Assembly: GCF_001936335.1 (NCBI RefSeq)
Contig: NZ_CP018888.1
Span: forward strand, 248,001-312,000
Reading direction: 5' to 3'
Length of the DNA: 64,000 bases
Source of the DNA: Amylolactobacillus amylophilus DSM 20533 = JCM 1125
GTDB taxonomy: Bacteria; Bacillota; Bacilli; Lactobacillales; Lactobacillaceae
Numbering within the stretch: position 1 is the first letter of the stretch; the number at the start of each line of letters is the position of its first letter. A program made the position numbers and the translations under genes. This document shows positions 42,067 to 63,377 of this stretch, piece by piece. The notes under the pieces were generated by a model, which searched no databases, was not told the origin of the DNA, and saw only the letters and a list, made by a program, of their open reading frames with translations.

Positions 42067-44427
42067 TTACTTGAATTCGACGATCGTCGCACCGGAACCA
42101 CCTGAACCTTCAGGCGCATAGCCGAAGCTCTTGACGCGCTTATTTCGCTTCAGATACTGCTGTACTCCCTGTCTAATAGCGCCGGTCCCGATACCGTGAA
42201 TAATTGTTGCACTATCGATTCCTGCTAGTAACACAGAATCAATATAACGATCTAGCTCTGTCATTGCCTCATCATAACGCTTACCACGTAGGTCTAGGCT
42301 CGAGGATGTACTGCTTCTCTTAAGCGGACTAGTATGTGAAATCTGGCGTTCAGGTTGTTTGCCGGTTTTTGCGACTTGATTTGTTTTTTCAAGATCGGCT
42401 TTTTTAACTTTGACCTTCAAGGCCCCAATCTGAACCTCGAACTCTGCATCAGACAGTTTCCGTGTTACCTGACCAAACTGGCCGTAACTCAGTACCTTAA
42501 CCTCGTTCCCCACCTTAATCTGCTGCTGTTTCTTCGCCCGTTTCAATACCCTATTGTGTGCCAGATTCTGATCACGTAACTGATTCAACGCACCCTTTGC
42601 GGCAATTAACTTATCATCCTTGACCGTTGCCGCCCCTTGGTCGCGTGCTGCTCGTAATTGATCAATAATCTTATCTGATTTATCTTGGGCATTTCTAATG
42701 ATCTCATCAGCCTTTTGCTTAGCGGCGTCCAGCTGTTTCTGCTCTCTTTGGTGATAGAATTCGAGTGCCTGTGTCAATTCATCCCGTAGTTTAACGGTCT
42801 GCTCAAGCCTTGATTCATACAATTTCTTAGCCTGAGTTGCTCCCTTTGTCTGTATATTCAATTTCGTGATCATCGAGTTCAAATCACTATCATCACTATT
42901 CATGAATCCACGTGCCTGTTTTACAATGGCTTTTGGCATCCCTAGACGCTCCGCAATCGCGAAAGCATTACTGTGACCAGGAATTCCTATTTGCAGGTTA
43001 AATGTCGGCGACAAGGTGGCTAAGTCAAACTCCATGCTAGCATTAGTCGTTCGCTTACGGTCATATCCGTATAACTTCAGCTCTGGATAGTGGGTGGTTG
43101 CGGCAACCTTACTATGTTTCGCCCTGACCGTATCCAGAATAGCGATTGCCAGCGCCGCTCCCTCTTCAGGGTCGGTTCCAGCGCCAAGTTCATCGAACAA
43201 AACAAGGCTATCCTCGTCATTTTGAGCAAGAATCTTAATGATGTTGTCCATGTGCGAGGAGAAAGTACTCAGGCTCTGCTCAATCGACTGCTCATCACCA
43301 ATATCCGCAAAAATTTCCGTGAAAACACCGACCTGACTGTTCTCGTGTGCCGGAATGAATAAGCCAGACTGCGCCATCAACTGGAGCAAACCCAGAGTTT
43401 TCAAAGTAATTGTTTTACCACCCGTGTTCGGGCCAGTAATAAGCATCGTGTCGAACTTCAGGCCGAGATTAATATCGTTTGGTACAACCTTCTTTGGGTC
43501 AATCAAAGGATGTCTTGCCTGAATCAGATTAATTTGATGTGCGTCATTAACTTGTGGTTCCGTGGCCCGCATTTGATCCGCCAAACGGGCTTTTGCCTGC
43601 AAGAAATCTAGTTCTACTAGTGCATCTGTCGTTACCGTAATTTCTGTGACGAAATCACCCGCCATTGACGATAATTCTGCCAGAATCCGTTTCACCTCAG
43701 CGCGTTCTTGAGCCACAATTTCCTGGAGCGAGTTATTAAACTCAACGACGCCCTTTGGTTCAATAAATAGGGTCTGACCACTGGCGCTTTGATCATGGAC
43801 CACACCGCCAAACTTATACCGGTATTCCTGACGGACAGGAATGACGTATCTTTCGTCTCTAATCGTGATAATTTGCTCACTTAAATATTTACTCTCGGAG
43901 CCGTGCAAATAGCTGTCCATCTTCTGCTTAATGCTTGCTTCCATCCGGACAAAGCTATGCCGAATTGAACCCAGTGCGCTACTTGCTGTATCTAGAATCG
44001 TTCCATCAGCTTCCAATGAGTCTTTCAGTCTCTTGTACAACTTTTCGGGAATCACAAGCTCCTGTTGCAGTTGATCTAATGCTGATAAATCTAACTCGTC
44101 GTGATCCGCTAAAAAGCGTTTGACATCAGTTGCAATTCGCAGAACAAGTAAGATGTTTCCTAACTCATTGGCGTTTAGTTCTGCCCCGATCTTCAATCGT
44201 TTAATTGCTGGCGCAACGTCTTGAAAGTTCACTATTGGTAGACTACCCATTACGCGCAGGACATTTGTCATCGCCAACGTCTCATTAATAGCAGACCGTA
44301 CTTCTTCTAAATCAGTCTGCGGCATGAGTGCCCTTGCACGCAATTTTGCCGCATCGGTCACCGCTAGTCCGGCTAAGCGGTCTAGAATCTTTGCGAATTC
44401 CAGTGTATTTAATATTTTTTCGTTCAT
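42067..44427 (-). CDS. mutS2: Endonuclease/recombination inhibitor MutS2
   Basis: 786 residues. It lacks the mismatch-recognition domain of MutS; core and lever are followed by an ABC ATPase with Walker A GPNTGGKTIT (near residue 335) and Walker B LVLFDELGAGTDPEEG. A coiled-coil and KOW-like segment leads to the C-terminal Smr nuclease domain with LDLRGKRYDEA and IHGIGTGAIR. MutS2 suppresses recombination and has been shown to rescue collided ribosomes in Bacillus. ATG at 44427 preferred; a TTG three codons earlier is possible. Confidence 0.95.
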   Translation of the reverse strand: MNEKILNTLEFAKILDRLAGLAVTDAAKLRARALMPQTDLEEVRSAINETLAMTNVLRVMGSLPIVNFQDVAPAIKRLKIGAELNANELGNILLVLRIATDVKRFLADHDELDLSALDQLQQELVIPEKLYKRLKDSLEADGTILDTASSALGSIRHSFVRMEASIKQKMDSYLHGSESKYLSEQIITIRDERYVIPVRQEYRYKFGGVVHDQSASGQTLFIEPKGVVEFNNSLQEIVAQERAEVKRILAELSSMAGDFVTEITVTTDALVELDFLQAKARLADQMRATEPQVNDAHQINLIQARHPLIDPKKVVPNDINLGLKFDTMLITGPNTGGKTITLKTLGLLQLMAQSGLFIPAHENSQVGVFTEIFADIGDEQSIEQSLSTFSSHMDNIIKILAQNDEDSLVLFDELGAGTDPEEGAALAIAILDTVRAKHSKVAATTHYPELKLYGYDRKRTTNASMEFDLATLSPTFNLQIGIPGHSNAFAIAERLGMPKAIVKQARGFMNSDDSDLNSMITKLNIQTKGATQAKKLYESRLEQTVKLRDELTQALEFYHQREQKQLDAAKQKADEIIRNAQDKSDKIIDQLRAARDQGAATVKDDKLIAAKGALNQLRDQNLAHNRVLKRAKKQQQIKVGNEVKVLSYGQFGQVTRKLSDAEFEVQIGALKVKVKKADLEKTNQVAKTGKQPERQISHTSPLKRSSTSSSLDLRGKRYDEAMTELDRYIDSVLLAGIDSATIIHGIGTGAIRQGVQQYLKRNKRVKSFGYAPEGSGGSGATIVEFK

Positions 44428-58764: not shown

Positions 58765-60714
58765 CTAGTCTAGTTCTAATTTAGCAGTTTTTTGGACTCG
58801 TTTAAACATCTTCTGCAGATCTCGCTTCGAGAAATGAACCAGAATCAGTTTACCCGTCGGGCTCTGGTATGGTGAATCGGCGTTTTGCAAGTCGTCTAAT
58901 AAGCTCTGACCAGTTTCTAGATTGAAGCGGGTATTCTGCTGCTGGCCGTGCTGCACGGACTGCTGCACCGCAAACAGCACAACTTGCTGTTTAAAATCCG
59001 ACACATCACTTCGTGGATTGTTGAAGTAGAGATTAAGCGTAGCTCGAGCATATTTCTCTTCAAAGCCCGCCGGTATCCAATTAGGATGGCTCTTCATGAT
59101 GAGGCTATTCCGGCCAAAATCCTCTAGTACTAAGCCTACTTCTTTAAACAAATCTAGATGGTCTAGTACTTGTTCATATTCTGTGTTGTTTAACTCCAAG
59201 ATTATGGGGGTCAACAGCACCTGCTGCGTGAGCGTCAGCTCAGTTAATTCTTGTTCCAGCTTGTTATACCGCAGGCGAGCCATTGCCTCCTTGGCGTCTA
59301 CCAGGTAAAATCCGCTGGTACTGTCCGCAACAATCAGCCCGTTATGTAGCTGACCGATATATGTTAACGCAGGAAAACCGGCTTGTAAAACCTGATCCGT
59401 CGAACCATGCGCCACATCTGTCGCTTTGACCAGTGCACCACCAAATGGCAACAATCCTGTCTGAATTTGGACGTTTTGTGCCCAGCTAGGTGAGACTAGC
59501 GACTGATCAGGGTCTGATACCGAAATATTGAGCTCGCTGACCTCAAGTTCTCTATGCTCTACCGTAAATCCAGCAGAATTCTCGTGTACCTCAGCACCCG
59601 CTTGCTGGTCGTTCTCTTTTGGGGCTGCGATGTCTGCCGCATTGCTTTTGTTCAGGTTAAACACCATTTGGTCGTAGCTCGTCGTATCTGTTGGGTTGGT
59701 TAGATTAGTCAGCGCGTCGCCCGAGTTCGAGTTTCGTTCAAGCGCTTTTGCAACCGTATTGATAATCAGTCTGCTAAGGCTTGATTCCTTTGATAAACGA
59801 ACCTCCTGCTTCGTTGGATGCACATTGACATCGACCAATAATGGATCCAATTTGATATTCAATACGAAAATCGGAAATTTACCTAGGCCAATTTTCGAGC
59901 CATATCCTGCCATAATTGCCTTACTCAGCTGAAAATTCTTGATATAACGCCCATTGAGGAGAATAGAAATGTAATTCCGATTCGCCCGCGTAATGTCGGG
60001 TGGCGTCATCAGGCCAGTAATGACAAAGTCTGCATCAGAACCGCTAAATTCAATCAGCTGACTGGCTACGATCCGCCCATAGATGTGCGCCATATCCTGG
60101 CGCAAGTCGCCACTACCATTTGTGAGTAGCAAATCTTTCTTTTCACTCTTCAGCGAGATCTTGAGCTCGGGATGACTCAGGGCAATCCGATTGACGATAT
60201 CAATAATCTTCGTCGTCTCCGTCGTCTCCGATTTGAGATACTTCAACCGCGCAGGCGTGTTGTAAAAGAGGTCCCGCACACTAATTCTCGTTCCCTTTTT
60301 CGCAGCAGCTGGCTTTTGCGTCAGCTTCCGCCCATCGGCAAAGGTGGCACTAACACCTGCAGCACCACCAGTATTAGTCAGAATAGCCACATGGGCTACG
60401 GCACTAATAGATGCGAGTGCCTCACCCCGAAAGCCCAGAGTGCGAATCTTAAATAAGTCCGCCTTTGTACTAATCTTGCTTGTCGCGTGCCGGCGAAAAG
60501 CTAAATCCAACTGATTTGGTGCAATACCACTACCATTATCCTCAATCACGATTTCCCGTAGTCCGGCCTCCACAAAGGAGATCTTGATTTGACTACTACC
60601 CGCATCAATGGCGTTCTCCAGTAATTCCTTCACCACCGAACTTGGACGTTCGATTACTTCACCAGCAGCAATTTGGTCACTCAATTCAGGTGATAATTCT
60701 TTAATTTCTGCCAT
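58765..60714 (-). CDS. mutL: DNA mismatch repair protein MutL with degenerate endonuclease motifs
   Basis: 649 residues. The N-terminal GHKL ATPase is complete: Glu/Asn in ERPSSVVKELLENAIDAG (Asn34), DNGSGI (59-64), GFRGEAL (94-100). A flexible linker (about 330-445) follows, then the dimerisation domain. A clamp-binding-like QVLLTP (498-503) is present. Against Bacillus MutL, DQHA(X)2E(X)4E reads DAKEAMARLRYN (473-484), and the later C-terminal metal sites read VQQSVQHGQ (583-591) and SPTGKL (618-623), where Cys and His ligands such as CPHGRP are expected. So the endonuclease appears inactive although the frame is undamaged. Directly follows mutS (1-nt gap). Confidence 0.93.
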   Translation of the reverse strand: MAEIKELSPELSDQIAAGEVIERPSSVVKELLENAIDAGSSQIKISFVEAGLREIVIEDNGSGIAPNQLDLAFRRHATSKISTKADLFKIRTLGFRGEALASISAVAHVAILTNTGGAAGVSATFADGRKLTQKPAAAKKGTRISVRDLFYNTPARLKYLKSETTETTKIIDIVNRIALSHPELKISLKSEKKDLLLTNGSGDLRQDMAHIYGRIVASQLIEFSGSDADFVITGLMTPPDITRANRNYISILLNGRYIKNFQLSKAIMAGYGSKIGLGKFPIFVLNIKLDPLLVDVNVHPTKQEVRLSKESSLSRLIINTVAKALERNSNSGDALTNLTNPTDTTSYDQMVFNLNKSNAADIAAPKENDQQAGAEVHENSAGFTVEHRELEVSELNISVSDPDQSLVSPSWAQNVQIQTGLLPFGGALVKATDVAHGSTDQVLQAGFPALTYIGQLHNGLIVADSTSGFYLVDAKEAMARLRYNKLEQELTELTLTQQVLLTPIILELNNTEYEQVLDHLDLFKEVGLVLEDFGRNSLIMKSHPNWIPAGFEEKYARATLNLYFNNPRSDVSDFKQQVVLFAVQQSVQHGQQQNTRFNLETGQSLLDDLQNADSPYQSPTGKLILVHFSKRDLQKMFKRVQKTAKLELD

Positions 60715-60715
60715 A

Positions 60716-63274
60716 TTAATCCTCGTTATTCAACTCTTGTTGCCATTGGCTCACTGTATTCATCAATTCAAGTGGCGTCTTGTCAGCCAAGTACAACGAC
60801 CTAATCGTGCTGATTACGTCCTTCTCTACGTCACTGATTGTATCTTCCGAATCAAACAGAGCTAATTGTTCCGTATTCTTGGTTGACGCGGAATGTTGGT
60901 CCTGCTCCAGCTGATGCAACATCGTCGTGGCTTCTGCAAGTACCGGTTGCGGGAGCCCCGCTAGCTTCGCCACATGAATCCCATAAGATTCGTCCGCTGC
61001 CCCAGGCAATACTTTATGCAAGAAAATTAATTCGCCATTTTTTTCGGTAGCACCGACATGCACGTTCTTCAAGTGGGTTAGCGTCTGATCGAGCATCGTC
61101 AACTCATGATAGTGTGTGGCAAACATTGTCTTAGCATGAATATTATTATGTAAGTACTTAATAATTGCACCGGCGAGTGCCATCCCATCATAAGTGGCCG
61201 TCCCCCGACCAATCTCATCGAAGATCACCAGGGACTTTTTAGTAGCATGCATCAAAGCCTGATTTGCCTCGTTCATCTCAACCATGAAGGTACTCTGGCC
61301 AGAAATCAGGTCGTCCGCAGCGCCAATTCTGGTAAATATTTGGTCAAAAATCGGCAGCTTGGCCGTTTCGGCGGGAATAAAAGAACCAATCTGGGCCATC
61401 ACAACAATCAGAGCTAGTTGGCGCATGTACGTGCTCTTACCAGACATGTTCGGTCCAGTAATCAAGAAAATATTGCTACTCTCATCCATTAGCACGTCAT
61501 TTGGGATATAGTCCCGTTTGGCCAGAACCTGTTCCACCACCGGGTGACGCCCGTTAACAATCTGAATATTCTGGTCTTTTTCATTGATGGTCGGCTTAGT
61601 GTACTGATTCTTCTCTGCTAAAACCGCGAAGTCCGCTAGGACATCCAATGTAGCTATCTCTTGACCCAACTTTTGTAGTTGGGGGATGTATTGCTTAATC
61701 TGATCGCGCAGCTTGACGAAAAGTTCGTGCTCGAGGTCCGTTGATTTATTCTCTGCCTCGAGAATTAAATGTTCATGCTCCTTCAATTCAGGCGTTATAT
61801 ACCGCTCTGCATTGGTCAAAGTCTGCTTTCTCTGGTAGCGCTCCTCAGGCACATTTGCCTTGTTTGCGTTAGTCACCTCGATGTAGTAACCAAAGACCTT
61901 GTTAAAGCCGATTTTGAGCGTATTAATTCCCGTCTGCTCACGTTCCTTTGCTTCAAGCTCCGCCACCCAACGCTTGCCATTTGTCATGACGTCAACGTAA
62001 CGGTCAAGCTGGTCATTATAACCCGGACGAATTAGTCCGCCATCTGTGGTGGAAACGGGTGGGTCATCGACCAATGCTGTCGTAATCAGCTCTGCCACAT
62101 TTTGCATTGGGTCAAGTTGTGAAGCAAAGTCTAGCAGCGTCTTGCTCTGGGACTGGCGAAGTGTAGCGAGTATCAAAGGAACCTGCTTCAACGAGCGGGC
62201 CAGCTGCAACAATTCACGTCCATTGACGCTGCCAAAAGCAATGCGGCCAGTCAAGCGCTCCAGATCATACACACCGGCAAGTGCATCTAGAACACTCTCC
62301 CGCGTGAAGTAATCGTCTAGCAGAGCTTCGACCATCTCTTGGCGTGCCACAACATCCTGTTTCCTAATCAGGGGGCGGTCAATCCACTGTTTAAGGAGGC
62401 GTCCACCCATCGCTGTCTTTGTTTGATCCAACAACCAGTACAGCGAACCCGCCTTTTTCTGTGTTTTGTTGGAATTTAGCAACTCCAAATTCTGCTTCAC
62501 GACGTGACTCATCTGGAGGTAACTACTTGGCTCGTATGTCTTGGCTATTTGGAGGTGAGCGAGGCTCCTCTTCTGGGTAGCCACCAGATAATCGATTAGC
62601 TGGCTCGTGCTTAGACGTTCCTCTTCGTTAGTGAGGTTCTGGGTGACAAATGACGTCTCACTTGACGGTTGTTCCGGTTTAAACGGCTTTGAAATGATGA
62701 TGTTAGCCTTGGCAAAATAATCTTTTTGCTGATCAGTGAGTGCGCCCGACCAAACAACCTCTTTCGTTCTGAGCGACAGTAATTCATTGAATGTGCTGTC
62801 AAAGTCCACTAGATGGGTCGTCTCTATCTCACCTGTTGCGAGGTCGGCATACCCCAATCCATAACCCGCGCTGGTCAGTACAACTGAGGTCAGATAATTA
62901 TTGGTCTTTGCATGATTGGGCCGATCATCAACCATTGTCCCGGGTGTGATCAGTTGAATGACATCCCTTTTGACCATCCCTTCAGCCAGCTTTGGATCCT
63001 CCAGTTGCTCGCTAATGGCGACCTTATAGCCTTTCTCAACCAGAGTATCGATGTAGCTTTGGACCGCGTGATGAGGCACACCGGCCATTGGAATTGGATG
63101 TTCAACATTCTTGTTTCTGTGCGTGAGTGTCAGTTCAAGAATCTGTGCCCCCTTCACAGCGTCGTCCTCGAAGAGTTCATAGAAATCGCCCACACGATAA
63201 AACAAGAAGGCATCAGCATACTGTGCTTTTATTTTCCTGTACTGTTGCATCATTGGTGTATCTGCTTGTGGCAT
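60716..63274 (-). CDS. mutS: DNA mismatch repair protein MutS
   Basis: 852 residues. Mismatch-reading motif in RVGDFYELF (Phe31-Tyr-Glu33), Walker A GPNMSGKST (607-615), Walker B LVIFDEIGRGTATYDG, and ATHYHEL. Near the C-terminus EQLALF fits the beta-clamp-binding peptide, so MutS should track with replication. The ATG at 63274 has AGGAG about 9 nt upstream; an ATG three codons earlier is too close, and the open frame reaches 31 codons beyond. TATAAT at 63311-63316 (minus strand) marks its promoter. Confidence 0.96.
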   Translation of the reverse strand: MPQADTPMMQQYRKIKAQYADAFLFYRVGDFYELFEDDAVKGAQILELTLTHRNKNVEHPIPMAGVPHHAVQSYIDTLVEKGYKVAISEQLEDPKLAEGMVKRDVIQLITPGTMVDDRPNHAKTNNYLTSVVLTSAGYGLGYADLATGEIETTHLVDFDSTFNELLSLRTKEVVWSGALTDQQKDYFAKANIIISKPFKPEQPSSETSFVTQNLTNEEERLSTSQLIDYLVATQKRSLAHLQIAKTYEPSSYLQMSHVVKQNLELLNSNKTQKKAGSLYWLLDQTKTAMGGRLLKQWIDRPLIRKQDVVARQEMVEALLDDYFTRESVLDALAGVYDLERLTGRIAFGSVNGRELLQLARSLKQVPLILATLRQSQSKTLLDFASQLDPMQNVAELITTALVDDPPVSTTDGGLIRPGYNDQLDRYVDVMTNGKRWVAELEAKEREQTGINTLKIGFNKVFGYYIEVTNANKANVPEERYQRKQTLTNAERYITPELKEHEHLILEAENKSTDLEHELFVKLRDQIKQYIPQLQKLGQEIATLDVLADFAVLAEKNQYTKPTINEKDQNIQIVNGRHPVVEQVLAKRDYIPNDVLMDESSNIFLITGPNMSGKSTYMRQLALIVVMAQIGSFIPAETAKLPIFDQIFTRIGAADDLISGQSTFMVEMNEANQALMHATKKSLVIFDEIGRGTATYDGMALAGAIIKYLHNNIHAKTMFATHYHELTMLDQTLTHLKNVHVGATEKNGELIFLHKVLPGAADESYGIHVAKLAGLPQPVLAEATTMLHQLEQDQHSASTKNTEQLALFDSEDTISDVEKDVISTIRSLYLADKTPLELMNTVSQWQQELNNED

Positions 63275-63310
63275 CTTAATCATCTCTCCTAAAAATAATA
63301 CTTTCTCATC

Positions 63311-63316
63311 ATTATA
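63311..63316 (-). promoter_or_regulatory. mutS promoter -10 box
   Basis: TATAAT on the minus strand, 37 nt upstream of the MutS ATG. I could not fix a good -35 box at 16-18 bp; the transcript would run mutS-mutL and possibly on into ruvAB-queA. Confidence 0.55.
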
Positions 63317-63339
63317 CCGTAAAATCTCCCCCGCAAACG

Positions 63340-63377
63340 ACAAAAAGAGAACAGCATGCTTGACCACTGTTCTCTAG
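63340..63377 (-). terminator. Terminator of the amino acid permease gene
   Basis: Minus strand AGAGAACAG and CTGTTCTCT form a perfect 9-bp stem around an 11-nt loop, followed by five T. Lies between the permease gene and the mutS promoter. Confidence 0.9.

Follow-up and report, generated by a model that had tools for sequence, protein, structure and literature searches.

MutL proteins without an endonuclease site are already known, namely those of E. coli, eukaryotic MLH1 and human PMS1. In bacteria that have no MutH, discrimination between the newly made and the parental strand is usually attributed to nicking by MutL itself, licensed by the β clamp. In B. subtilis MutL, the residues of motifs II, IV and V converge at a metal site (PMC2965676). 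Here, we describe the mutL gene in a stretch of 64,000 nucleotides (the window) from Amylolactobacillus amylophilus DSM 20533 = JCM 1125 (NZ_CP018888.1, positions 248,001 to 312,000), whose product has almost certainly lost this endonuclease metal site. Single residues of the site are given in B. subtilis numbering, which is based on PMC2965676 plus general knowledge.

The mutL gene is a complete open reading frame on the minus strand without a frameshift. A genome-wide search (1.61 Mb) found mutL once, and no second MutL paralogue exists in the genome. The features of the gene are as follows:

58765..60714, minus strand: mutL, encoding a MutL that lacks the endonuclease site (649 amino acids; Pfam MutL_C, DNA_mis_repair and HATPase_c_3; NCBIfam mutl TIGR00585, 545 bits)
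59740..60714, minus strand: N-terminal GHKL ATPase region, residues 1-325, with KELLENAIDA, DNGSGI, GFRGEAL, NTPAR and VHPTKQEVR all intact
59263..59298, minus strand: degenerate motif II, residues 473-484, reading DAKEAMARLRYN instead of DQHAAQERxxYE (H464 to K, E468 to A)
59206..59226, minus strand: retained β-clamp-binding motif QQVLLTP, residues 497-503, with Q, LL and P invariant across 47 aligned MutLs
58942..58968, minus strand: degenerate motif IV, residues 583-591, reading VQQSVQHGQ instead of SCKxxIKAN
58846..58863, minus strand: degenerate motif V, residues 618-623, reading SPTGKL instead of CPHGRP (C604 to S, H606 to T)

The original prediction had quoted the three degenerate segments at these residues as the remains of a lost endonuclease site. 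This was borne out when the protein was aligned with 108 intact MutLs of Lactobacillales, where the metal ligands fell at the quoted segments. The ligand positions D/H/E were intact in all 108 proteins and C/C/H in 107 (the other is truncated), where the window protein reads D/K/A and V/S/T. Asp462 is the sole metal ligand left, with His464 replaced by Lys, Glu468 by Ala, Cys604 by Ser and His606 by Thr. The window MutL therefore has neither the DQHA(X)2E(X)4E motif of the endonuclease subclass (DAKEAMARLRYN in its place) nor the Cys of ACK and the Cys/His of CPHGRP (V, S and T there). The site loss also withstood a search for intact motifs elsewhere: none was found in MutL, and no DNA encoding CPHGRP occurs anywhere in the window. 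Since every metal ligand but Asp462 is replaced, nicking by the window MutL is not expected from its sequence.

The rest of the protein is retained. The GHKL ATPase of bacterial MutL was recognized by Pfam, NCBIfam and motif inspection, the clamp-binding motif QxxLxP lies in the C-terminal domain, and the MutL_C dimerisation domain is present (PF08676, 92 bits). The C-terminal domain was modelled by AlphaFold (AF2) with a predicted local distance difference test score (pLDDT) of 92, and its best PDB match was the C-terminal domain of B. subtilis MutL (3gab, 3kdk), with a TM score of 0.84 by query and 0.92 by target. The earlier view that MutS and MutL look otherwise intact thus held, with ATPase, clamp, mismatch-binding and Walker motifs and the C-terminal fold all retained.

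The site was lost in 53/53 distinct MutLs, comprising 51 from Lactobacillus sensu stricto and both members of the window's genus, and DQHA was kept in all 35 other MutL-bearing genera inspected in the family. In a phylum-wide sample, the His/Glu and Cys/His ligands were kept in 90/90 MutLs (72 with the strict motif and 18 with motif variants, by inspection). MutL was found in 395 of the 400 family genomes. The five genomes without it (G028, G062, G091, G116 and G140) all belong to one genus, g28, which is probably Oenococcus, as mutSL is known to be missing from Oenococcus oeni (PMC6498615). One further MutL, L135 (G008:C20:7670-9666), has an intact DQHA and a C-terminal domain disrupted further down by a stop; a separate recent MutL loss and an assembly error are both possible explanations.

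A maximum-likelihood tree was built from the MutL N-terminal domain only, which excludes the nuclease site. The loss group formed one branch (support 100/100) with a single change, which was reached in 0/500 shuffles. As read from these sequences, the tree shows one loss event in the common ancestor of the window's genus and Lactobacillus sensu stricto. Because the loss is common to every member of a clade with 100/100 support, neither chance nor sequencing error explains it, and the claim of a long-standing loss without a frameshift was confirmed as one event common to all Lactobacillus sensu stricto. Internal stops in the Lactobacillus MutLs were considered and dismissed: the "1 TAG" flags sit at the true gene end, and the frames are complete and open.

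The replacement residues in Lactobacillus follow a pattern. In the alignment, 50 of the 51 Lactobacillus MutLs have Arg in place of Glu468 and the remaining one has Lys, and this change is paired with Cys604 to Asp in all 51. Asp462 is retained in 50/51, and motif V now reads DPYxDxxG. The MutLs of the window and of genome G001 carry Ala (468) and Ser (604) in place of the Arg/Lys-Asp pair. H464 and H606 are absent throughout the clade. Given that these motifs come together around the metal in B. subtilis MutL (PMC2965676), a salt bridge (Arg468-Asp604) may have replaced the former metal bridge in Lactobacillus.

Published mutation data allow us to ask whether repair still runs in this clade. 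Hale et al. 2025 (PMC12691593) performed mutation accumulation in two Lactobacillus strains, and MutL is nowhere mentioned in that study. Lb. crispatus ATCC 33820 had 9.01e-10 substitutions/site/generation, a transition to transversion ratio (Ts/Tv) of 1.50 and no repair defect; mutS was intact in 483 Lb. crispatus genomes, and the rate is on par with that of Lc. lactis, 8.36e-10 (PMC12691593). Lb. acidophilus ATCC 4356, which has a mutS frameshift, had 1.97e-8 and a Ts/Tv of 30.0, and 1,042 small indels, mostly of 1 nt, were counted in it vs 71 in Lb. crispatus (PMC12691593). In our set, G390 is taken as Lb. crispatus ATCC 33820, and its MutL site is lost (L104, L214). G511 is taken as Lb. 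acidophilus ATCC 4356; its MutL is open with the site lost (L407), and its mutS is split by a frameshift after ~90 codons. If the match between strains and genomes holds, MutS loss on a background of dead-site MutL goes with ~22x more substitutions and the spectrum of absent mismatch repair, and MutS-dependent repair therefore ran without the MutL nuclease. The data from these two member strains strongly suggest that MutS-dependent repair in the clade works without MutL nicking and without MutH. We consider it very probable that mismatch repair is active in Lactobacillus.

The retained machinery is under selection. Between close Lactobacillus species, the ratio of nonsynonymous to synonymous substitution rates (dN/dS) was ~0.055 for the MutL C-terminal domain, 0.029 for the N-terminal domain and 0.026 for MutS. 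The C-terminal domain had a dN/dS of 0.003-0.022 in genera with an intact site. Constraint on this domain is looser than in the intact genera yet strong, and selection is purifying. Across Lactobacillus, the mutS and mutL frames are open; the exceptions are the known mutS frameshift of Lb. acidophilus and draft assemblies that are fragmentary. The sequences, the tree, the selection analysis and the predicted fold together show that the C-terminal domain was kept as part of a clamp-tethered, ATP-switched dimer.

We propose that the ancestor of the window's genus and Lactobacillus lost the Mn/Zn endonuclease site of MutL once and kept the domain. The β clamp would hold both MutS and MutL, and the orientation of clamp loading would mark the new strand. 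MutS-MutL would direct helicase and exonuclease to breaks that already exist in the nascent strand, such as Okazaki-fragment ends and RNase HII nicks, and MutL would serve purely as a matchmaker. Entry at natural nicks is an older proposal for bacteria without MutH, made before nicking by MutL gained acceptance (PMC8744996). This overall explanation, with a single site loss, continuing repair and entry at nascent-strand breaks, is the one we regard as probable. We also lean towards a third bacterial mode of MutS-MutL repair, which would use neither MutH nor the MutL endonuclease and would start from existing breaks or from a nickase yet to be found. Breaks already present in the nascent strand are the likeliest source of the nick, and the chance that they are the entry point is about even. 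RNase HII was found in 39/40 genomes, the sole exception being G001, which is 65% complete; because it is universal, it is compatible with this role but not diagnostic of it.

Several points weigh against this explanation. In P. aeruginosa, some motif residues are reportedly needed in vivo and not for nicking in vitro (Correa 2011), so that loss of the motif need not equal zero activity. The mutation comparison covers two non-isogenic Lactobacillus species and is a test of MutS and not of MutL; the Lb. acidophilus lineages had additionally lost alkD, adaB and mfd (PMC12691593). Between-species Ts/Tv at fourfold sites was 1.5-2.0 in Lactobacillus (6-8% divergence) and 0.9-3.3 in genera with an intact site, which gives no hint of a mutator in Lactobacillus; the test discriminates poorly, however, with values of 3.9 (5% divergence) and 1.8 (22%) in the control genus that has no MutL.

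Other explanations were compared with entry at existing breaks. An unrecognised endonuclease recruited by MutS-MutL could make the nick, so that MutL would act as in E. coli with an analogue unrelated to MutH. Mismatch repair seems active although MutH, NucS and the MutL nuclease are absent, and E. coli offers a precedent for a matchmaker MutL (PMC12733681). MutH-like genes, which the original prediction had advised looking for, were found in 0/29 clade genomes, 0/75 Lactobacillus genomes and 0/2 further genomes by a family-level search that detected the E. coli control; NucS was found in 0/18 genomes searched. Clade genomes therefore show the features of neither the E. coli-type MutSLH system (MutH) nor NucS/EndoMS. 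MutS2 had been named as an alternative nicking enzyme, and this idea gained no specific support, since full-length MutS2 is present in 60/60 genomes whichever kind of MutL they carry. In a gene-content comparison limited to four families, no candidate tracked the loss, and full-length MutS2 and RNase HII occurred with either kind of MutL. A MutS2 paralogue without the Smr domain is enriched in the clade, but it has no nuclease domain and is missing from about half of the Lactobacillus genomes. We regard an unrecognised nickase as unlikely, although it is the main rival.

It is less likely still that MutS-MutL is kept chiefly for heteroduplex rejection in recombination, which needs no nicking, with repair of replication errors lost or weak. 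In E. coli, MutS and MutL prevent DNAs that have diverged from exchanging strands (PMC6382021), and such a role would account for purifying selection without the nuclease; it is still a possible role in the window's own genus. The normal spectrum of Lb. crispatus, its rate equal to that of Lc. lactis, and the 22-fold increase with a Ts/Tv of 30 on mutS loss in Lb. acidophilus speak against it (PMC12691593). A remodelled site, in which Asp462 and the new Asp604 (with Asp/Glu473 and Asp600 in Lactobacillus) would bind metal in a new geometry, is very improbable. The near-constant Asp462, the constant Asp604 and the DPYxDxxG form of motif V speak for it, but the other key ligand is Arg/Lys in 51/51, a change more in keeping with a salt bridge than with metal binding; the MutLs of the window and of G001 have Ala and Ser there and no acidic set, and both histidines are gone clade-wide. 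We give the least credence to a decaying system in a natural mutator lineage. The looser constraint on the C-terminal domain (0.055 vs 0.003-0.022) and the repeated breakage of mutS in Lb. acidophilus (PMC12691593) would suit it, but dN/dS is far under 1, the mutS and mutL frames are open across the genus apart from the exceptions given above, and the Lb. crispatus spectrum is normal. Homopolymer runs of at least 8 in coding sequence had an observed to expected ratio of 0.10 in Lactobacillus vs 0.84 in the MutL-less g28 and 0-0.43 elsewhere, although the expected direction is debatable; this weakly supports homopolymer avoidance in Lactobacillus that resembles the intact genera, unlike the MutL-less genus. 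The original prediction was thus right about the lost site and the age of the loss, while MutS2 as the substitute nickase found no specific backing, and the purifying selection on mutS/mutL and the Ts/Tv of 1.5 in Lb. crispatus lend no support to repair being generally inactive or to the clade being mutators in general.

The window also contains mutS and mutS2:

60716..63367, minus strand: mutS, in the same operon as mutL, with GDFYELF (mismatch-binding), Walker A GPNMSGKST, DEIGRGT and the clamp motif QLALF intact
42073..44424 (= G000:C1:290073-292424), minus strand: full-length mutS2 (profile positions 1-790), not specific to the loss clade

The longest mutS frame begins at a GTG ~31 codons ahead of the homology, and translation probably starts near codon 32 (about 63274). 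In 28/28 clade loci, mutS lies upstream of mutL on the same strand and overlaps it or ends at most 8 bp away. The MutS QLxLF, MutL QxLLxP and ATPase motifs are retained in essentially all of these 28 operons.

A second MutS2-like gene of ~550-650 amino acids, which stops before the Smr nuclease domain, was seen in about half of the sampled Lactobacillus genomes (examples are G390:C1:1078949-1080457 and G164:C1:1721566-1723077). Within the family, it is almost confined to Lactobacillus, with one broken copy in G016. In the window genome, outside the window, a 358-amino-acid frame (G000:C1:400046-401032) matches MutS2 positions 3-89 and 386-628 and, on this profile match, appears to be a remnant of the Smr-less paralogue that has undergone an internal deletion. 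MutH-family domains were also seen in ~500-amino-acid frames of two genera with intact MutL (L162 in G034 and L163 in G023); these are probably Sau3AI-type restriction enzymes.

No earlier description of the site loss in Lactobacillus MutL was found in the open full-text literature, and subscription papers may hold one. If our reading is true, the nick by MutH or MutL, which is held to be the universal first step, is dispensable, and this clade would challenge the textbook account of repair initiation in MutH-less bacteria. Lactobacillus, whose members are common as commensals and in food and can be cultured, would then offer a natural test of the need for the MutL nick. The loss also bears on annotation, where "endonuclease MutL" is the name given to these site-less proteins, and on how mutation rates measured in lactic acid bacteria are interpreted.

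The window MutL resembles B. subtilis MutL in domain order, the fold of the C-terminal domain, the clamp motif QxxLxP, the mutSL operon and a genome without MutH. It differs in that B. subtilis MutL is a clamp-licensed endonuclease (DQHA..E, ACK, CPHGRP), whereas the window protein keeps just Asp462. E. coli MutL also has no endonuclease site, and the window MutL would be a matchmaker too; however, E. coli MutL activates MutH, which is absent here, and its loss is independent. The C-terminal domain of the window protein is much nearer to that of B. subtilis than to that of E. coli MutL (1x9z, query TM score 0.60-0.62). Human and yeast MLH1-PMS1 (MutL-beta) and the MLH1 subunit are MutL homologues that likewise lost the DQHA site and kept the ATPase and dimerisation. 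They are eukaryotic, and a sister complex (PMS2/Pms1) still nicks, whereas the window MutL is the only one in its genome. The MutLs of Lactobacillus sensu stricto (Lb. crispatus, acidophilus, kitasatonis and others) form the sister clade with the same loss, and differ in carrying E468R/K and C604D as a pair where the window's genus has E468A and C604S. The unusual feature of this locus is a site-less MutL that has no known nicking partner.
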